Shown here: positions 6,199 through 21,329 of the stretch, one piece after another
How positions within the stretch are numbered: the stretch's first letter is position 1
Layout of the letters: every line of letters begins with the position of its first letter
Source of the DNA: Noviherbaspirillum sp. UKPF54
GTDB lineage: Bacteria > Pseudomonadota > Gammaproteobacteria > Burkholderiales > Burkholderiaceae_D
Assembly (NCBI RefSeq): GCF_007874125.1
Contig: NZ_CP040128.1
Coordinates: 2,356,001-2,420,000, forward strand
Reading direction: 5' to 3'
Length of the DNA: 64,000 nucleotides
Notes under the pieces: generated by a model
Told to the model about the DNA's origin: nothing
Database searches by the model: none
Seen by the model: only the letters and a program-made list of their open reading frames with translations
Made by a program: the position numbers and the translations under genes

Positions 6199-8277
6199 AT
6201 GAGCACCACACCGCACCGCAAGCTGTTTGTCACCACCGCCCTGCCCTACGCCAACGGCGCGTTCCACATCGGCCATATCATGGAATACATCCAGGCTGAC
6301 ATCTGGGTGCGCTTCCAGCGAATGCAAGGCAACGAGGTGCATTTCGTCGGCGCGGACGATGCCCATGGCGCGCCGATCATGATCGCGGCCGAAAAAGCCG
6401 GCGTGACGCCGCAGGAATTCGTCGCGAAGATCGCCGCCGGCCGCGCACAGTACCTCGACGGCTTCCACATCAGCTTCGACAACTGGCACTCGACCGATGC
6501 GCCGGAAAACCATGAATTATCGCAGGACATCTACCGCCGTCTGCGCGACCATGCGAAATTAATCACGACCAAGACCATCGAACAGTTCTTCGACCCGGTC
6601 AAGAACATGTTCCTGCCGGACCGCTACATCAAGGGCGAATGCCCGAAATGCGGCGCCAAGGACCAGTACGGCGATTCCTGCGAAGTATGCAGCGCGGTCT
6701 ATGCGCCGACCGACCTGAAGAACCCGTATTCGACGCTGTCGGGTGCGACGCCGGTATTGAAGTCATCCGAACACTACTTCTTCCAGTTGTCCGATGCGAA
6801 GTGCGTCGAATTCCTGCGCGAATGGACACAGACGCCGAACCGTCTGCAACCGGAAGTCGTGAACAAGGCCAAGGAATGGCTGGAAGGCGACGAAGGCCTG
6901 GGCGACTGGGACATCAGCCGCGACGCGCCCTATTTCGGCATCGAGATTCCCGATGCGCCGGGCAAGTATTTCTATGTGTGGCTGGATGCGCCGGTTGGCT
7001 ATCTCGCATCGCTGAAGAATTACTTCGACAAGACCGGGCGCGACTTCACCGCCTTCATGAACGATGCATCGACCGAGCAGTACCACTTCATCGGCAAGGA
7101 CATCATCTACTTCCATACGCTGTTCTGGCCGGCCATGCTGAAGTTCTCCGGACTGAAGGTGCCCACCAATGTATTTGTGCACGGCTTCATCACGGTTTCC
7201 GGCGAAAAGATGTCGAAGTCGCGCGGCACCGGCATTTCGCCGCTGCGCTACCTGGAACTCGGCATGAATCCGGAATGGCTGCGCTATTACATCGCCGCCA
7301 AGCTCAACGCCAAGGTGGAAGACGTCGACTTCAACCCGGATGATTTCGTATCGCGCGTAAACTCCGACCTGATCGGCAAGTACGTCAACATCGCCAGCCG
7401 CGCGGCCGGCTTCATCACCAAGCGTTTCGGCGGCAAGCTCTCCGACGAGGTGACCGGCGATGCCGCCATGACCTGGCGCCTGCGCTTCGGCGAACACGAA
7501 GCCGCAATCCGGGAAGCGTTCGAAGCGCGCGAGTACGGCAAGGCGATCCGCCAGATCATGGCGCTGGCCGACGAGGTCAACCAGTACGTCGACACCAAAA
7601 AGCCGTGGGAACTGGCGAAGGATCCGGCCAACAACCAGGAACTGCAGGATGTCTGCAGCAACCTGTTGCGCTCGTTCTACTGCCTGACGATCTACCTCGC
7701 GCCGATCCTGCCGGCGCTGGCGCGCAAGGTGTCGGCACTGTTCGGCATCGAACACGACCTGACCTGGGCAGATCTTCAGACGATGCCGCATTCGATCGGC
7801 ACCTTCGAGCACCTGATGACGCGGGTCGACCCGAAGATGCTGGATGCGCTGTTCGAAGCGCCGGAGCAGCCTGCGGCTGCGAAGCCTGCCGAGGCAGCGC
7901 AAGACGCTGGCTCCGCGACGATTGAGCCGATTGCTCCGGAAATCAAGATCGACGATTTTGCCAAGGTTGATCTGCGCATCGCGAAGATCGTCAATTGCGA
8001 GCATGTCGAAGGCTCCGACAAACTGCTGCGCCTGACGCTCGACGTGGGCGAAGGCCGCATGCGCAACGTCTTCTCCGGTATCAAGTCGGCTTACCAGCCG
8101 GAAGACCTGATCGGCAAGCTGACGGTAATGGTGGCTAACCTGGCGCCGCGCAAGATGAAGTTCGGGATTTCGGAAGGCATGGTGCTGGCCGCATCCGCCG
8201 CCGACGAAAAATCCACCCCGGGCATTTACGTCCTGAATCCCTGGCCGGGCGCCGAACCAGGCATGCGGGTGCGCTGA
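6199..8277 (+). CDS. metG: Methionine--tRNA ligase
   Basis: This class I synthetase charges both initiator and elongator tRNA-Met. The 692 residues contain HIGH at 23-26, a zinc knuckle with Cys148, Cys151, Cys161 and Cys164, the KMSKS motif at 337-341, a helical anticodon-binding domain, and a C-terminal Trbp111/EMAP-like OB domain from about residue 580 ([14 protein letters not shown]) that dimerises and binds tRNA. An Ala/Pro/Glu-rich linker (about 555-575) joins the two. Length matches the long dimeric MetG of E. coli type. A TAAAAT box at 6163-6168 is a plausible -10 element about 30 bases before the start. Confidence 0.97.
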
Positions 8278-8320
8278 CCATGCCTTGCGAGGATATGGGC
8301 GGCAGTTGCCAGAGGGGGCG

Positions 8321-8800
8321 ATGAGCGTCGTCGTTCGCGAAGCCGTCCTCGACGACGCGCCGCTGATCGCGGAACTGACCCGCGCCGCCTGGTTCGGCAA
8401 GGTCGCCGCCACCTCGAGCGGGCATCGCGAAACGGCGGAGCGGGTCACAGTACACCTGCTGCAGGGTGGCGGCTTCATCCTGCTGAAGAACGACCTGCCG
8501 GTCGGCTCGGTACGCTGGGTGCCCCTCGACGGCGAAGCGAACGTCTGGGAAATCCTGCGCATGGGTGTGCTGCCGGCATATCGTGGCGAGCATCTGTCCG
8601 AGCACTTGCTGGAAGCGGTGATCCATCGGGCACAGGTGGCCGACATTGAAGAGCTTCGCCTTGCGGTGCGCGCCGATCAGCCGCGCCTGCTGGACCTGTA
8701 CGCGGCGTTCGGCTTTGAATTCGCGCCCGAACTCGAATACACCCATGCCAATCCGGCCGAACCCGCGCCAACGGTGATGCGCCGACTGCTGGGCTACTGA
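8321..8800 (+). CDS. GNAT family N-acetyltransferase
   Basis: This encodes 159 residues. The ATG at 8321 follows an AGAGGGGG ribosome site and fits better than the in-frame TTG at 8285. The fold pattern is that of a GNAT acyltransferase: a first helix after VREAVLDDAPLIAELT, a beta4 strand (EILRMGVLPAYRGE) leading into the acetyl-CoA loop, and a late strand-helix (RLAVRADQPRLLDLYAAFGFEF) typical of the family's end. The acetyl-CoA loop reads YRGEHLSEHLLEAV, so the R/Q-x-x-G-x-G/A signature is degenerate. The substrate cannot be told from sequence. It starts 43 bases after metG and may be co-transcribed with it. Confidence 0.8.
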   Translation: MSVVVREAVLDDAPLIAELTRAAWFGKVAATSSGHRETAERVTVHLLQGGGFILLKNDLPVGSVRWVPLDGEANVWEILRMGVLPAYRGEHLSEHLLEAVIHRAQVADIEELRLAVRADQPRLLDLYAAFGFEFAPELEYTHANPAEPAPTVMRRLLGY

Positions 8801-10991: not shown

Positions 10992-12769
<1,778 letters not shown>

Positions 12770-14281: not shown

Positions 14282-14893
14282 TTACAGCTGCGCCCACCGC
14301 ACCAGCGCGCCCCACTGCTCGACATCCTTTTCCACGCGTGATTGGGCCACGTCCCACAAGGTCGCGCCATGCGCGGCCAGTTGCACGTAATTCTGCGTCT
14401 CGCGCAGATATCCCAGGACCGGCACACCAAGATTACTGACATAATGCGCAAGCTGGTCGGCGGCGCGGGTGCGCACGTTGACCCGCATGCCAAGCACGCC
14501 GATGTTGCGGGCGCCGTGCCTTGCCTTCACCCCCTCCAGGAAGGCCTGGGTCGCCAGAATGTCGAACATCGATGCCTGCAGCGGCACGATCACCTTGTCG
14601 GCGATGCGCAGCACTTCTTCCAGGCGCGCGCCGCCCAGCCCGGCCGGCGTGTCGAGCACGATGTGCGTGGTTCCCTTGGGCGGGCGCGCCACAGAACCGT
14701 TGTCAATTTCCCATGCCGCGATCGGCGGCAGGCTGCCGGCCCGCAGCGCCAGCCAGGCGCGCGACGACTGTTGTGCATCGGCGTCTCCCAGCATGACCTT
14801 GTGGCCCTGCCGGGCAAAATAACCGGCAAGATTGGTGGCAATCGTGCTCTTGCCGACGCCGCCCTTGGGATTGGCGATGACGATGACCGGCAT
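14282..14893 (-). CDS. ParA family ATPase, orphan
   Basis: This is a 203-residue P-loop protein with the deviant Walker A motif NPKGGVGKST (residues 8-17), a Walker A' region DADAQQSS, and Walker B VLDTPAG. These define a short ParA/MinD-type ATPase without the N-terminal DNA-binding domain of plasmid ParA. The start ATG has a strong GGAGGAG site. No ParB or parS is visible beside it. It is divergent from the SMC-like operon, with 148 bases between the starts, so a role in positioning DNA or another cargo together with that complex is possible but unproven. Single ParA-like genes of this kind also occur alone in many betaproteobacteria. Confidence 0.85.
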   Translation of the reverse strand: MPVIVIANPKGGVGKSTIATNLAGYFARQGHKVMLGDADAQQSSRAWLALRAGSLPPIAAWEIDNGSVARPPKGTTHIVLDTPAGLGGARLEEVLRIADKVIVPLQASMFDILATQAFLEGVKARHGARNIGVLGMRVNVRTRAADQLAHYVSNLGVPVLGYLRETQNYVQLAAHGATLWDVAQSRVEKDVEQWGALVRWAQL

Positions 14894-15006
14894 GTTCTCC
14901 TCCGCTCAAATTAATGTTTTGGCATCAATTTTCCATTTGGAAACAGCATTTTTGCAAGCATAGCACGCAGATTTTCGGCTTCCAGGCGCCCGTGGCCGAT
15001 TTCAGG

Positions 15007-15035
15007 TTCTTTCCTATGGGGCACTGCCTTAAAAT
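15007..15035 (+). promoter_or_regulatory. Possible promoter giving a leaderless transcript of the SMC-like operon
   Basis: TAAAAT at 15030-15035 is a good -10 box, but the matching -35 position (TTCTTT, 15007-15012, 17-base spacer) is weak. A start 7 bases downstream of the -10 box falls at the A of the ATG at 15042, and no spaced ribosome site precedes that ATG. Confidence 0.35.
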
Positions 15036-15041
15036 ACTGGG

Positions 15042-16370
15042 ATGCAAAACTTATCGACCAATTCCGGCCCCGTGCCGGATGACGAACAACCGACCTCGCT
15101 GCAAGCCTACTTCAAGCCCCAGATTTCCCCGGACGATATCGAACAGGTATTTCGCCTGAAACAGGCGCAGCCGCTGCTGCAGGCATTTACCGCGCTGTTC
15201 CATGGCGGCTCGGACAGCGTCCTGGTGCGCTTGCTGGTGTTGCAGGAACTGGCATCCGATGCACAGGCGACGTCCCTGTCACGCGCCGACATCAACACCA
15301 GGCTCGGCTACCTCGATCCGGACAGCCTGGAAACGGTGCTGGCACGCCTGCGGTCGCACCACTTGCTGGCGTGGGACGCCGCGCAGGGCGTGTACCGCAT
15401 CACCCCGATGGCGCGCAATATCCTGGCGGCGCTCGACGCGCTGTTGGGACTGGGCCAGGACGAGGACGATGCGGAAATGGGCTTTCTGCTGTCACAGGTG
15501 GCCGGGTCGCAAGCAGTAGGCGGCGTCTCGGTGGAACAGCTGCAGCACCTGCTGGGCCGCATGGTCGACCTGACCGAGGAATTCCGCGATGCGATCGCCT
15601 CCGGGTCGGAATTCCGCCTGCGCGCCGCGCAGCAGAAATGGCACACCGCCTGCGACTGGGTCGATAAGGGCTCGCAGATCATCCAGCAGATCACGACCGA
15701 CCCCGATGCCGACGCGGCCACGCACCGTGCCGCGCAGGCGATCGGCCGCGCGCAAAGCGCCCTGCTCAACATGCAGGGCATGTTCTCGCGCGCGCTCAAC
15801 CAGATCGAGCGCCAGCGCGTGCATCTCGGCCAGTCGGGCCTGTCGACCACCGACATCAAGACCTGGCTGATGCAGCACGAAGACCTGGCGGGACTTGCCA
15901 GCAGTGCCGTTGCCCTGCCGGTCACGCCGATGTTCATCACGCCGTCCGAGATGATCGACGTGGCCGAGGCCGAGCTTTTCGCCGACAAGAACAACCGCGC
16001 CGACGACGTGCTGCCGACCGGCGAAAATGCGCACGTCACGCAAAGCGAGGCTGCGGCCATTCCGGTGGAACTCGATACCTGGCTGACACGCCTGACGTCC
16101 TTTGCCTCGTCCACCGGTTCCGCCTCCACGGTGCACGACACGCTGCTGCCCGCGACCTTCGCGATCGCTTCCTACCGCGCTTCGCTTCTGCCATTGCTGG
16201 GCGACGAGAGCGAGGCGGCGCTGCAGGGCGGCACCGCGACCATGGCGCGCCTGCCGCTGGAGTTCGCGCCGCAGGACGACATGGTGAAGCTGAAAGACCC
16301 GCACGTGGCGGCCATCTCGATGGCCACCCTGACACCGACATCAGATACGGAAACACAGAATGACCGATGA
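15042..16370 (+). CDS. MksF/JetA-like kleisin subunit of an SMC-like complex (putative)
   Basis: This 442-residue soluble protein is mostly helical. Residues about 40-130 look like a winged-helix domain (SLSRADINTRLGYLDPDSLETVLARLRSHHLL... then YRITPMARNILAAL). A central coiled-coil region (160-290: QLQHLLGRMVDLTEEFRDAI, AIGRAQSALLNMQGMFSRALN) follows, then a C-terminal helical part. This architecture, and its place as first gene before a small winged-helix protein and an SMC-like ATPase, matches the kleisin MksF (JetA in Wadjet). The assignment rests on architecture and gene order rather than a recognised motif. Its stop codon overlaps the next gene by 11 bases, implying translational coupling. 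Confidence 0.55.
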   Translation: MQNLSTNSGPVPDDEQPTSLQAYFKPQISPDDIEQVFRLKQAQPLLQAFTALFHGGSDSVLVRLLVLQELASDAQATSLSRADINTRLGYLDPDSLETVLARLRSHHLLAWDAAQGVYRITPMARNILAALDALLGLGQDEDDAEMGFLLSQVAGSQAVGGVSVEQLQHLLGRMVDLTEEFRDAIASGSEFRLRAAQQKWHTACDWVDKGSQIIQQITTDPDADAATHRAAQAIGRAQSALLNMQGMFSRALNQIERQRVHLGQSGLSTTDIKTWLMQHEDLAGLASSAVALPVTPMFITPSEMIDVAEAELFADKNNRADDVLPTGENAHVTQSEAAAIPVELDTWLTRLTSFASSTGSASTVHDTLLPATFAIASYRASLLPLLGDESEAALQGGTATMARLPLEFAPQDDMVKLKDPHVAAISMATLTPTSDTETQNDR

Positions 16371-17028
16371 CGCACAAATCCTGATCGCGCAGCTGCTCAC
16401 GCACCAGACCCTGGCGCGCGAGAACAAGCTGGTGAAACGAGCGCTGACCGACGAATTGTTCCGCCAGGACCTCGATGCGCGGCTGGCCGCCTGCGGCATG
16501 AAGTTCGTCGACAACGTCTACGCGGACAACGTCACGCTTGCGCTTGCGCGCGAGATCGAGCCGAAGATCTTCGGCTCGCGCGAAGTCTGGCAGAACAACA
16601 ACATGGGCCTGGCGCGCGACGGCGTCGCCTTGCTGGTGGTGCTGTGGGCGATGATTATCCTGCCCAAGCGCGAGCGCCAGGAAGCGCATCAGGCCGCGCT
16701 GGAAGACCAGGAAGACATGTTCGGCAAGGAGAAACCGATGCCGCGCGCGGAAGACGCGTCGATGGGCATTTCCTACAAGGCGCTATTGGCCGATTTCGGC
16801 GACAAGCTGGGCAAGAAGACGCGCATGGACATGAACCTTGGCCAGTTGAACAAGCTCGGCTTCATCGAGCGGCGCGGCGACATGATCGTGGAAGGGCCGC
16901 TCTTGGACCTGATGATGGATACCGACACGCTGCGCGACCGCATCATCAACGGCGCGCTAGCCGACATCTTCCATCGCCCGCCGCCCAAGGAAGCGGCCAT
17001 CCTCACATTCCCGCAAGCAGAACAATAA
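16360..17028 (+). CDS. MksE/JetB-like winged-helix subunit of an SMC-like complex (putative)
   Basis: This 222-residue protein has an N-terminal helical part (QILIAQLLTHQTLARENKLVKR) and a middle resembling the tandem winged-helix KITE-type partners of SMC complexes. A first domain ends near LARDGVALLVVLWAMIILPK. An acidic linker follows, then a second domain (ISYKALLADFGDKLGKKTRM ... LGQLNKLGFIERRGDMIVEG) with the wing-like beta hairpin. It overlaps the upstream gene by 11 bases and lies 15 bases before the ATPase. Size and position fit MksE/JetB (DUF4194-like). No catalytic motif is visible, consistent with a structural subunit. Confidence 0.55.
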   Translation: MTDDAQILIAQLLTHQTLARENKLVKRALTDELFRQDLDARLAACGMKFVDNVYADNVTLALAREIEPKIFGSREVWQNNNMGLARDGVALLVVLWAMIILPKRERQEAHQAALEDQEDMFGKEKPMPRAEDASMGISYKALLADFGDKLGKKTRMDMNLGQLNKLGFIERRGDMIVEGPLLDLMMDTDTLRDRIINGALADIFHRPPPKEAAILTFPQAEQ

Positions 17029-17043
17029 GCAGACAGGATACGC

Positions 17044-19863
17044 ATGTTTCATATCAAATCGCTGGAGATGGTCCACTGGGACTACTGGCAACGCGTCAAG
17101 AACATTCCGCTGGACGCGAAGATCATCACCATCGCCGGCCAGAACGGCTCGGGCAAGACCACGCTCCTGGACGCGCTGCGCACCCTGTTCGGCCTCGACT
17201 GCTCGATGGGCCGCTCGTACAAGCACTATGCGCGCCACGCCGGCCAGCAAACTTCCTGGCTGCGCGCGGTGGTCGACAACCGCCCTGTCGGACGGCAGCT
17301 GTCGAATAGACCGTTCCGCTCGTCCGGTTTCTTCAGCGAAGACGAGGTGACGCTGTTCTGCCAGATCCAGAAGAACGGCGGCGACTGGAAGCGCCAGTAC
17401 CTGATGCGCGGCGGCGTGGTCGACATCGAGGAAGTGCGGGAAGCGAACGACTGGCTGGGCCTGGAAACCTATCGCAAGCGTCTGGCCAACGCAGGTCTCT
17501 CGCCCGCGATGGCAAAAGTGCTGGCACTCGAGCAAGGCGAAACCGACAAGCTGTGCGAATACGCGCCGCGCCAGCTGCTGGACCTGGTGTTCCAGGTGTT
17601 CGGCGACAAGGAAGTGCTCGATGCCTATGACGAAGCAAAGCGCCACCAGCACGACACCGAAATCGAGCTGCAGCGCTTCGAGACCGAGCTGGAAGCGGCG
17701 CAGACCAACCTGGAGCGGCTGCGCCTGCGCGCGGCCAACTTCCACCAATGGGAAGGACTGAACAAGGAACAGCGCGACCTGCAGGAGGAAATCCTGCCGA
17801 CGCTGCAGTACCACGAAGTGCGCGAAAAGGCGAGCGCGACCAGCCGCATGCTGCGAGAGTCGAAGGCGTCGATGGCGCAGCAGGATGTCCAGCTGTCCGA
17901 ACGACGCACAGAACTGGCCGAGCGCGCCAACGCGCTCTCCGCCGCGCATCAGCAAGAGACGGCGCTGGAAGAGGAAAAGTCTGTCCTGGAAAAGCGCCTC
18001 GGCGAACTCAACGCCAAGCTCAAGCCGCTGGAAAGCCTGCTCGAACAAAAGGCGCGCCTGCAAAAGCTGGCGGCGGATGAAGGCGCCGACATCGCCGACG
18101 TGGCCGCGCAACTGGAGCAGAAGGAAGCCGAGTACATGCGCCTGCGCCAGTCGCGCGACGAGCTTGCCGCGCGCATAGCAGGCGAGCGCGCCGCGATTGC
18201 CGCGCTGGAGGGCAAATCCGCCCTGCCCGACCCGGAACATGTGCGTTCGATGCGCCGTGCCTTGGCCGACGCGAAGATCGAGCATGCAATGCTGCCCGAT
18301 ATCGTCGAAGTGACCGATCCGCGCTGGCAAGGCGCGGTCGAAGGCGTGTTGCGCGGCTATACCTCGGTCGTGCTGCTGGAAAATGCGCGCGACGCGTCGG
18401 CGGCCTACCGCATCGGCGAGAAGGAGCGCTACGGCCACTTCATCGTATCCGACCGCGTGCGCGCGCCGGAGGTGAAGGACCAGAGCCTCTTGTCGGTAGT
18501 GCGCTTTACCGCGCCGGCGCCGTCCTGGCTGATCGACCAGCTCGCGCGCATCGCCCGCGTCGATTCGGTCGACGCCGGCATGAAGCAGCGCTCCGGCGAC
18601 GAATGGATCACGCCGGAAGCCTATCATCATGAGCGCCGCGGCGGCCGTTCGCTGTTCGTGGAGGCCGCGCGCTACCGCTTCGGCCAGGCAGGCCGCGCGC
18701 AGCGCCTGGCGGCGCTGCTGCAGTCGCTGCCCAAGCTGGAAGCGCAGGAAGACCAGCTCACGCTGAAGATCAACAAGCTCGCCGGCGAAGTCAGCGCGTT
18801 GAAGGCGCGCATCGCCGGCGTCGACGCGGCCAAGGAACTGGTGGCGCGCCAGGCGGAGTTCGACGAAGCCACGCACGGCGCGGCACCGCTGAAGGCGGCC
18901 CGCACCGAAGTCGGCAGCCGATTGGGCGAGCTGTTCCCGCTGACGAAGAAAGCGACGGAAGACCGCACGCTGGCCGACAACGCCTGGCAAAACGCCAAGC
19001 GCGCGCTGGCCGACGGCGAAGCCAACCTGCGCCAGTCGCAGAAGCGCCAGCGCGAGGAACGCGAAGCGCATGGCAAGGTCTTGCGCGAAATCCGCCAGAC
19101 CTGGCGCCACCTGCCGCACGCCTGGCGCAAGCCGGCGCGCCGCCTGGAACTGGTGGAAGAACATCAGAATGCGCACCAGGTCGAGCTGCGCCTGAAACAC
19201 TTGGCCACCGACCTGGCGCGCGACGACTGGGAAACCGACTCCACCGTGGTCGATCAGCATGTGCGCCTGACCGCGCTGCTGCAGGGGCGCCAGGCGGAAA
19301 CCGAGGAGCGCCGCTACCAGAACAACCGTGCGCGCGAAGCGACCGAGAATGCGCGCGGCGCCTACATCGAGCGCCTGCGCTACACGATCAAGACCTACAG
19401 CCGCAACATCAAGGAGCTGGGCGAACTGGCCGGCATCGAGGTGCATACCGATCCGGTGCGGCTGGAAAACGACGATGTGCAGCTGGCGCAGGCCGGCCTG
19501 CACGTGCGCTTCAAGTTCGACGGCAAGGGCCCGATCGGCCTGAACGACGGCGAAGCCTCCGGCGGCCAGCAGGTGATGAAGTCGCTGATCCTCTTGATCG
19601 GCCTGTTGAAGTCGGACGACGGCTCCGGCGGCTTCGTGTTCATCGACGAGCCGTTCGCCCACCTGGACATCCGCAACATCCAGCTGGTCGGCGAGTTCCT
19701 GAAGAACACCGATGCGCAGTACCTGATGACGACGCCGCTCACCCACAACACCGACGTCTACGATCCGTCCGAACTGACGCTCATTACGAGCAAGAAGAAA
19801 AAGGACACGCACTGGGCGCAGCCGATCTTCGTGCTGCAGCGGCGCACGCAGGAAGCGGCGTAA
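17044..19863 (+). CDS. SMC-like ATPase, MksB/JetC type (putative)
   Basis: This is a 939-residue split ABC ATPase with long coiled coils. The Walker A motif GQNGSGKT is at 32-39, an EQGETD segment is near 165-170, and the coiled-coil arms run about 200-385 and 560-800. Between them is a non-coiled hinge (about 395-545, including DPRWQGAVEGVLRGYTSVVL). The ABC signature is SGGQQ at 839-843, Walker B FVFIDE at 864-869, and the D-loop PFAHLD follows. It is shorter than Smc (about 1150) or MukB (about 1480) and similar in size to MksB/JetC. Such complexes extrude DNA loops, either for chromosome organisation or, with a nuclease subunit, for plasmid defence. No JetD/MksG nuclease gene follows: the next gene is cobQ on the opposite strand, 29 bases away. 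Confidence 0.8.
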   Translation: MFHIKSLEMVHWDYWQRVKNIPLDAKIITIAGQNGSGKTTLLDALRTLFGLDCSMGRSYKHYARHAGQQTSWLRAVVDNRPVGRQLSNRPFRSSGFFSEDEVTLFCQIQKNGGDWKRQYLMRGGVVDIEEVREANDWLGLETYRKRLANAGLSPAMAKVLALEQGETDKLCEYAPRQLLDLVFQVFGDKEVLDAYDEAKRHQHDTEIELQRFETELEAAQTNLERLRLRAANFHQWEGLNKEQRDLQEEILPTLQYHEVREKASATSRMLRESKASMAQQDVQLSERRTELAERANALSAAHQQETALEEEKSVLEKRLGELNAKLKPLESLLEQKARLQKLAADEGADIADVAAQLEQKEAEYMRLRQSRDELAARIAGERAAIAALEGKSALPDPEHVRSMRRALADAKIEHAMLPDIVEVTDPRWQGAVEGVLRGYTSVVLLENARDASAAYRIGEKERYGHFIVSDRVRAPEVKDQSLLSVVRFTAPAPSWLIDQLARIARVDSVDAGMKQRSGDEWITPEAYHHERRGGRSLFVEAARYRFGQAGRAQRLAALLQSLPKLEAQEDQLTLKINKLAGEVSALKARIAGVDAAKELVARQAEFDEATHGAAPLKAARTEVGSRLGELFPLTKKATEDRTLADNAWQNAKRALADGEANLRQSQKRQREEREAHGKVLREIRQTWRHLPHAWRKPARRLELVEEHQNAHQVELRLKHLATDLARDDWETDSTVVDQHVRLTALLQGRQAETEERRYQNNRAREATENARGAYIERLRYTIKTYSRNIKELGELAGIEVHTDPVRLENDDVQLAQAGLHVRFKFDGKGPIGLNDGEASGGQQVMKSLILLIGLLKSDDGSGGFVFIDEPFAHLDIRNIQLVGEFLKNTDAQYLMTTPLTHNTDVYDPSELTLITSKKKKDTHWAQPIFVLQRRTQEAA

Positions 19864-19891
19864 AAATCGGCGGCGGGCGCGGCCGCCCGCC
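19862..19891 (-). terminator. Terminator of the cobalamin operon, shared convergent hairpin
   Basis: GGCGGGCG-CGGC-CGCCCGCC forms a perfect 8-base stem between the converging stops of the SMC-like gene and cobQ. On the minus strand it is followed by GATTTTTA. Confidence 0.75.
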
Positions 19892-19892
19892 C

Positions 19893-21329
19893 TTATTTCC
19901 GGAGCGCCTGCAGCACCGGCGCAGCCGCGTCGGCGATGCGGTCGATGCTTTGCTCGCGCAGTTGCGCCAGGTCGACCGGCGTCACCTGCGTCAGCCCGGC
20001 CCAGTTCAGCAATGCGCGAAGCGCCTGCGGACGGTCGAACAGGCCATGCAGGTAAGTCCCCAGGATCTGGTCATCCGGCGAGCGCGCTCCTTCCGGTCGA
20101 GCGGCGATACGGAAGGCGGGATTCGCCGTGGCGGAGCCCCGGGTGATGCCCATGTGGATCTCGTATCCGCTCACCGTCGCATCGGCGAACGCGCAACGGC
20201 CTTCGACCTGCGCCAGCCGCTTGTCCCGCGTCAGTTCCGTGTCGATATCAAGCAGGCCGAATCCCTGCGACACGCCGGGATTTCCTTCCACGCCCGATGG
20301 ATCGGTAATGGTTTTCCCCAACATCTGGTAGCCGCCGCACACGCCGATCACCTTGCCGCCGTAGCGCAGATGCTTGAACAGCGCGTCGCGCCAGCCACGT
20401 TCCATCAGCCAGGCGAGATCGGCGCGGGTGTTCTTGCTGCCGGGGAGGATGATCAGGTCGGCCGGCGGAATCGGCCGACCCGGACCGACGAAATGCAGAT
20501 CGATCTCCGGCTGCGCCCGCAGCGCATCGAAATCGGTATGGTTGCTGATGCGCGGCGGCACGGGAACCACGACGCGGAACGTCCCGCGCGCGCCCTGCGC
20601 CTGCTCGATCGCGTCTTCCGCATCCAGCTGCAGCCCGTGCAGGTAGGGCAGCACGGCCAGCACCGGCTTGCCGGTCCGCTTTTCCAGCCACTCCAGCCCC
20701 GGCTCCAGCAAGCGGATGTCGCCGCGAAAGCGGTTGATGACGAAGCCGATGATGCGCCTGCGTTCGCTTTCGGACAGGCAGTCCAAGGTGCCGACGATAT
20801 GCGCGAACACGCCGCCGCGGTCGATGTCGGCGACCAGGATCACCGGGCAGTCGACCGCTTCCGCAAATCCCATGTTAGCGATGTCGCGGTCGCGCAGGTT
20901 GATTTCGGCCGGGCTGCCCGCGCCTTCGACGATCACGGCATCGTAAGCGGAGGACAGCCGTCGATAGGATGCAAGCACCGCCCGCATCGCCACGGTCTTG
21001 TACCGATGGTAGTCGCACGCTTCCATCTCGGCGCACGGCTTGCCGTGAATGATCACCTGCGCACCGGTGTCGCTCGACGGCTTGAGCAGCACCGGGTTCA
21101 TGTCGGTATGCGGCGCCAGCCCGGCCGCCTGCGCCTGCAGCGCCTGCGCACGGCCGATCTCGCCGCCGTCGATGGTGACGGCGCTGTTGAGGGCCATGTT
21201 CTGCGGCTTGAACGGTACAACCCTTACGTCTTCGCGCGCCAGCAGACGGCACAGCGCAGCGACCAGGGTGCTTTTTCCCGCATCCGAGGTCGTGCCCTGC
21301 ACCATCAGGGTGTGATACGGGAACGTCAT
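19893..21329 (-). CDS. cobQ: Cobyric acid synthase
   Basis: CobQ (CbiP) amidates four side chains of adenosylcobyrinic acid a,c-diamide using glutamine and ATP. The 478-residue protein has the dethiobiotin-synthetase-like P-loop GTTSDAGKS (12-20) and a class I glutamine amidotransferase domain with the nucleophile Cys in [10 protein letters not shown] and the catalytic His near TYLHGLFD. Length is normal. Its ATG overlaps the stop of the preceding btuF-like gene (ATGA). As last gene of a riboswitch-controlled operon, it suggests that imported corrinoids are processed by salvage; the other cob genes are not in the window. Confidence 0.95.

Follow-up and report, generated by a model that had tools for sequence, protein, structure and literature searches.

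The stretch of DNA analysed here (the window, 64,000 nucleotides of the Noviherbaspirillum sp. UKPF54 genome, contig NZ_CP040128.1) carries, at positions 15042 to 19863, three closely packed genes that we call F, E and B (Table 1). The start codon of E lies 11 bases ahead of the end of F, the two genes overlapping, and 15 bases separate E from B; all three reading frames are intact and the ATPase motifs are present. A 951-aa antisense open reading frame (ORF) overlaps B, and B was preferred to it because of its codon score. The lengths of the ORFs, their span and the distance to cobQ are exactly as claimed in the initial annotation, which had taken the genes for an operon of the structural maintenance of chromosomes (SMC) type, similar to MksF-MksE-MksB or JetA-JetB-JetC and without an adjacent nuclease; the complete Walker A, SGGQQ signature and Walker B it had described can be read directly from the sequence.

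Table 1. Coordinates of the operon, the ATPase motifs of B and the neighbouring features in the window
Feature	Position	Strand	Comment
Gene F, kleisin-like subunit (MukF/JetA position)	15042-16370	+	442 aa ORF
Gene E, KITE-like subunit (MukE/JetB position)	16360-17028	+	222 aa ORF
Gene B, SMC-type ATPase (MukB/JetC position)	17044-19863	+	939 aa ORF
Walker A GQNGSGKTT, B residues 32-40	17137-17163	+	Read from sequence; all except Q33 invariant in 18 aligned homologues
ABC signature SGGQQ, B residues 839-843	19558-19572	+	Read from sequence; invariant in 18 aligned homologues
Walker B FVFIDE, B residues 864-869, then PFAHLD	19633-19650	+	Read from sequence; no variation from V865 to D875 among 18 aligned homologues
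ParA/MinD-like gene	14282-14893	-	Upstream neighbour of F
Left junction, ParA/MinD-like gene to F	14894-15041	.	ParA-like gene and cobQ ~101 and 96 bases apart in operon-less L097 and L098 (tblastn ends)
Right junction, B to cobQ	19864-19892	.	29 bases; expected place of a JetD-type gene
cobQ (CobQ-type amidotransferase)	19893-21329	-	29 bases past B

The F-E-B operon is real and conserved, and the closeness of its B homologues within the genus, the retention of its gene order and its low ratios of nonsynonymous to synonymous substitution (dN/dS) all place it beyond chance. Homologues of B occur in seven of the 13 genomes of the genus, the window's own included—the six others at 82-88% identity—and in 46 of 300 genomes of the order (~15%, own included, E-value ≤ 1e-20). 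Within the genus and for most members of the family, identity to the window B is 73-88% (45% in one member), and it is 41-46% elsewhere, with the weakest match at an E-value of 2e-180; among the matches listed are at least seven named loci, from Massilia, Polaromonas, Nitrosospira, Azoarcus, Acidovorax, an Oxalobacteraceae bacterium and a Burkholderiales metagenome bin. In a sample of the class, two of 369 genomes passed an E-value of 1e-40 in the B search, namely the window genome and G675. Six of 398 genomes sampled across the phylum matched a profile of protein E at an E-value ≤ 1e-5, every one with at least 286 bits, and the family therefore appears discrete. A second clade, in family f230, has full-length B in 12 of 59 genomes and, in one more, a B split over two contig pieces. 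An assignment of the f230 genomes to Pseudomonas was dropped, since the surroundings of these loci differ from those of mksFEB in PAO1; their gene content would at most hint at a Xanthomonadaceae/Lysobacter-like group. Finds of the window-type operon came solely from Burkholderiales sensu lato, the window's own order, and from two further families of the class, and phage records held no B homologue at an E-value ≤ 1e-5.

The order F-E-B, which the initial annotation had likened to that of Mks and Jet genes, recurs in 49 of the 51 relative loci, the remaining two being contig fragments with B alone, and in 12 of 13 f230 loci, the thirteenth being a contig piece. The dN/dS of the three genes ranged from 0.06 to 0.38 in 21 comparisons (scpA and panC: 0.04-0.08 in four). 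Of the six genus relatives, five were compared and gave 0.06-0.22, and two relatives outside the genus but within the family gave 0.17-0.38; the genes without a nuclease partner evolve under purifying selection. Some relatives depart from the compact layout: in L054 a gene for a GNAT acetyltransferase (7889-8431) sits between E and B, some others have gaps of several hundred bases within the operon, and in L095 (6001-13668) B runs without a stop into a frame of ~2555 aa, with similarity to the window B reported no further than residue 880—a fusion or a frameshift.

Judged from its sequence, B is an SMC-type ATPase with a middle region nearest to JetC. Pfam models matched it at 2.3e-14 (AAA_21), 8e-13 (SMC_N) and, weakly, 5.6e-4 (MukB N-terminal), and the best profile match in the PDB (2.6e-9, strongest over residues 2-49) was to the JetC of P. 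aeruginosa PA14. PADLOC returned JetC (3.8e-21) and LmuB (2e-16), the JetC match spanning the arm and hinge region, and many other P-loop models matched across the libraries; coiled coil possibly inflates some of these scores, that of JetC included. The NCBIfam Smc model TIGR02168 matched at 2.6e-19 with 68.5 bits, against a cut-off of 567.35. In hhalign comparisons, the middle region aligned with JetC profiles (5.7e-10 and 7.4e-8), with Smc at a mere 40% probability, and with none of Mks, Muk, SbcC and RecN (SbcC 0.4% and RecN 0.1%, one E. coli sequence each); the N-terminal head was nearest to JetC (1e-11 and 1.3e-10), and the C-terminal head to Muk (89%) and JetC (83%). A tree of the heads set the window family apart as a clade (98/99) that falls with Muk, Mks and Jet, with a weak split from Smc, SbcC and RecN (74/55) and branching without resolution among these three and the window clade. 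In an alternative reading, B is a repair ATPase of the SbcC/RecN kind and its two partners are unrelated; this would account for the P-loop and coiled-coil matches of B to Rad50/SbcC models. However, the grouping with RecN or SbcC that the initial annotation had named as counting against its proposal was not seen, the middle region of B matches neither protein, the partners have JetB-like and MukF-like predicted folds, and the gene linked to B in some relatives is of the JetD type (both described below), which renders this explanation scarcely credible.

The two partners of B were characterised mainly through predicted structures. For E, the top three Foldseek matches were chains of JetABC entries (8dk1_E at 4.3e-5, 8as8_C at 6.7e-5 and 8dk1_F at 1.1e-4), two of which (8dk1_E and 8as8_C) carry the name JetB; after them came chains from entries of Nse1/MAGE and ScpAB, at E-values of 7e-3 or worse. 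At modest confidence, the modelled fold of E is JetB-like, that of a KITE (tandem winged-helix) protein. The model of F (mean predicted local distance difference test score, pLDDT, of 77) has N-terminal winged-helix elements, long helices and a C-terminal β-hairpin, and its four best PDB matches are from MukBEF or MukE-MukF entries, one of them (3euh_A) named MukF; the model suggests a kleisin role for F. Two candidate relatives of F were set aside. Rv3488, the best PDB profile match (8.2e-4), is a transcriptional regulator and covers the winged-helix part alone, and weak reciprocal HMMER matches, such as that of F to a JetB-type protein (9.4e-4), cross subunit types and were taken as chance.

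Searches of sequence libraries with F and E against Pfam, NCBIfam and PADLOC at an E-value ≤ 1 gave no convincing family, the sole listings being TAD2 (0.11) and YajC (0.066); PHROGs gave no match at an E-value ≤ 0.1, and single and profile searches of PDB sequences gave nothing useful. As a positive control, JetA and JetB of type I systems from the same order hit PADLOC at 5.7e-226 and 5.7e-95 (values of the first of two control pairs, both detected); a second JetB-type control gave no match in a PDB search. The initial annotation had anticipated significant matches of all three subunits to Mks families in profile searches, and for F and E there were none by sequence. Its further remark that a separate SMC family is possible gains support, as neither F nor E hits a family of Pfam, NCBIfam or PADLOC.

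Relatives differ in whether they carry a nuclease gene. Consistent with the missing JetD/MksG nuclease noted at the outset, the whole window genome had no match to JetD_C (PF09983) at an E-value ≤ 1 and none to the family's own profile of the nuclease gene (G) at an E-value ≤ 0.01, a negative that reaches as far as these profiles do. A JetD-type gene G does lie behind B in eight of the 51 relative loci and in three of the 13 f230 loci; in the 51-locus set it encodes ~400 aa and overlaps B or starts at most 72 bases behind it, the copy in L071 being cut by the contig end. A search of 25 genomes with the G profile matched only the three with a known copy, and found none in the 13 operon-bearing genomes of the window's family (its own and 12 others), which suggests that the nuclease-free state is old. 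PADLOC calls G JetD1 (1.2e-21 and 3.9e-16, two copies scanned), and Pfam, at an E-value ≤ 0.01 on nine copies, detected DUF2399 in three and JetD_C in two. An alignment of nine copies shows no variation in the Toprim E, the first D of DxD or a C-terminal EQE, and L072 has another residue in place of the second D; the EQE is common to all ten JetD controls, from which the G proteins are set apart as one side of a branch (100/100). In passages of PMC10123090, the conserved MksG residues E349 and E351, both glutamates, are described as possible nucleophiles for JetD; the EQE of G may correspond to them.

Mapped on the B tree, presence and absence of the nuclease require at least seven changes, five of them forced by well-supported branches, in a count made by a quick method, with three rows keeping N-terminal extensions and with gain and loss indistinguishable. 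Nuclease-bearing operons lie in various settings, L072 beside holA and a proA-like gene and L144 beside folE. On two Variovorax megaplasmids (L197 and L198), copies of B adjoin IS1071 elements, one being the first half of B and the other the second half; behind the second-half copy come a JetD-type G of 393 aa (profile 2.5e-91) and xseAB. That the window operon might be the decaying remnant of a Wadjet system, stripped of its nuclease and devoid of present function, would agree with the missing nuclease and with the absence of the operon from six of the 13 genus genomes. We consider this very improbable, however, in view of three intact frames with ATPase motifs, the dN/dS values given above, and the apparently old nuclease-free state across the 13 family genomes.

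The operon exists alongside other SMC systems. As the initial annotation had proposed on the basis of scpA, the window genome has its own Smc (G000:C1:1328483) and an ScpA ORF at 10992 (Pfam SMC_ScpA, 1.5e-33). Smc was matched in 48 of 50 operon-bearing genomes, 47 times above the cut-off, the two without it being a 420-contig draft (G001) and a complete genome (G016). The latter, a single contig with the operon at C1:2240912-2243710 (L053), gave no Smc match at an E-value ≤ 1e-30 and no second SMC-like match in the B homologue search; the FEB complex is possibly the main condensin of this organism. In another operon-bearing genome, Smc lies in two adjacent pieces (G261:C1:113811-117280, model positions 1-660 and 671-1181). 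The KITE subunit of type I Wadjet (DUF4194) was over the cut-off in 23 of 150 order genomes, and in four of these it coexists with the window-type operon.

Comparison with the known systems helps to delimit the family. The operon shares with type I Wadjet (JetABCD) the kleisin-KITE-SMC order, the predicted fold of E (JetB), the JetC-like middle region of B and, in some relatives, a JetD1-type G straight after B. However, no nuclease was found in the window genome, F and E miss the PADLOC JetA and JetB models that detect the controls, and B has 939 aa against ~1120 and more; the operon is not classed as Wadjet because the nuclease and the JetA/JetB families were searched for and not found. Type III Wadjet is paired with DUF2397/DUF2398, neither of which F or E matched in Pfam at an E-value ≤ 1; a search for DUF2398 in 150 order genomes gave no match, with controls equally silent, and is uninformative. 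The gene order, the best structural matches of F and the MukB N-terminal match resemble MukBEF, but B is much shorter than the 1486 aa of MukB, and neither E nor F matched E. coli MukE or MukF by sequence. Smc-ScpAB follows the same SMC-kleisin-KITE logic and supplies some of the weaker fold matches of E, but Smc and ScpA are encoded separately in the window genome and B stays below the Smc cut-off.

A further comparison is with MksBEF, whose definition by Petrushenko in 2011 may be a broad one. Loci linked to the Pfam MksE family (PF21980), such as L146-L149, which stand here for MksBEF of that kind, have the same order and similar sizes (B of 917-943 aa in four examples), and P. aeruginosa MksBEF, which supplies a functional model from the literature, likewise coexists with Smc-ScpAB. 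On this basis, the operon could belong directly to MksBEF in its original definition (Petrushenko 2011), a known branch with nothing separate about it; passages of PMC4255302 give short arms and a frequent presence alongside other SMC complexes as traits of MksBEF. However, in L146-L149 the Walker A of B differs and the SGG signature is missing, their E aligns with MukE (93%) where the window E does not (by hhalign, a weak method here), the heads fall in separate clades, and the window E has no PF21980 match at an E-value ≤ 1, its genome having none at ≤ 1e-3. We regard direct membership as somewhat unlikely, and by sequence the operon does not appear to be an MksBEF of the Pfam MksE kind. Another Pfam-MksE match, in L159 (3728-9356), has a 1259-aa ATPase-like ORF upstream (Walker A GTNASGKT) and a 406-aa ORF downstream, and is possibly another Mks branch with a different gene order. 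F, E and B are best read as a deep and separate branch among complexes of the MukBEF/MksBEF/JetABC kind, a kinship suggested by the JetB-like fold of E, the weaker MukF-like fold of F, the JetC-like profile of B and the JetD-type genes behind B in some relatives. The Mks/Jet interpretation of the initial annotation stands as regards the kind of system, the gene order, the missing JetD and the coexistence with Smc, but not as regards a sequence match of F and E to Mks families.

On balance, we favour the view that F, E and B are the kleisin, KITE and SMC subunits of a short-armed complex on its own deep branch, which would serve in this genome as a nuclease-free, accessory chromosome-organising condensin beside Smc-ScpAB. 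By analogy with known SMC complexes, we infer complex formation, loop extrusion and a chromosomal target: two copies of B would pair through the hinge, with F bridging their heads and E binding F and DNA, and upon ATP turnover the complex would entrap DNA and probably extrude loops. Where relatives carry a JetD-type Toprim nuclease gene behind B, they may cut plasmids in the manner of Wadjet. Since no nuclease was found in the window genome, the complex most likely acts there without cutting, organising or segregating the chromosome, a role reported for MksBEF of P. aeruginosa.

Several observations weigh against this view. Nowhere in the searches did F or E show sequence homology to a known kleisin or KITE, the model of E is of low confidence (mean pLDDT of 64), and the best Foldseek match of F has an E-value of 2.3e-3 with a template modelling (TM) score of ~0.17, TM-scores being low. 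The F of one relative (L047) matched PADLOC JukB along a helical stretch (7.7e-5), its E giving no match. For B, the SMC_hinge match (0.021) is under the Pfam cut-off, and the N-terminal head by itself aligns with Smc (3e-9), Mks (2e-8), SbcC and Muk too. The negatives among subunit groups are themselves weak, and hhalign carries little weight there because it missed the kinship of G and JetD (0.6%), to which HMMER gives 1e-21. Finally, the absence of the operon from six of the 13 genus genomes indicates that it is dispensable, which also fits a role in defence.

The genomic neighbourhood bears on that role. Within the genus, the operon lies near the ParA/MinD-like gene and cobQ in all six relative loci. 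In two operon-less genomes of the genus (L097 and L098) these two genes are directly adjacent, a clean presence/absence of the operon at the parA-cobQ junction; as for the other operon-less genomes, L096 ends at cobQ and is uninformative, and G002, G005 and G011 have no close cobQ. A role for the ParA/MinD-like gene was dropped, since it stays beside cobQ where the operon is absent. Elsewhere, the operon is near rplU and obg in 26 of 61 loci, and in two more, the nuclease-bearing L056 and L074, on longer upstream sequence; L055, L056 and L074 are all downstream of rplU-obg. The notion that nuclease-bearing operons are mobile and nuclease-free ones fixed at obg was dropped as well, obg being found beside the nuclease-bearing L056 and L074 (via L205 and L206).

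Defence against plasmids or phages without a dedicated nuclease—the complex entrapping or compacting small circles, or passing them to a housekeeping nuclease—would be consistent with the patchy distribution in genus and order, the gain or loss of the operon as a unit at the parA-cobQ junction, the existence of JetD-bearing cousins and the partial copies on the two Variovorax megaplasmids, one with G still behind. However, the operon stands among housekeeping genes across whole clades, no match was found to the nuclease that executes Wadjet defence, and no defence genes were noticed by eye in the gene lists of eight of the 11 nuclease-bearing loci, whose neighbours were not put through a defence scan. 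We judge this alternative rather improbable and retain the accessory condensin as the favoured reading.

Published work offers precedents for both activities. Passages of PMC10586767 propose P. aeruginosa MksBEF to be a Wadjet that lost its nuclease and allow MukBEF a history in defence, calling the relationships not resolved; others, in PMC7083940, have C. glutamicum MksBEFG act on non-chromosomal DNA. Part of PMC7485682 reports the joint loss of SMC, MksB and ParB to be lethal in P. aeruginosa, and part of PMC12647877 that a plasmid is extruded by JetABC, JetD being activated afterwards. Among the titles and abstract openings of a literature search, none described the window-type family, from which we do not claim its absence from print. 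In two plasmid records, B is annotated merely as 'AAA family ATPase' or 'ATP-binding protein'.

Against this background, a three-gene SMC operon in ~15% of the sampled genomes of the order has F and E proteins recognised by no searched library. Tentatively, and with slightly more doubt than confidence, we suggest that it may represent a fourth major lineage of the MukBEF/MksBEF/Wadjet type, with kleisin and KITE families absent from the searched libraries and a nuclease gained or lost at least five times, once at a shared chromosomal site—a natural series from plasmid cutter to chromosome organiser on one scaffold. The family bears on how SMC motors switch between folding the cell's own chromosome and destroying foreign circles, and its close relatives with and without the nuclease (L056, L074 and L075 versus L055) would make the effect of the nuclease directly comparable.

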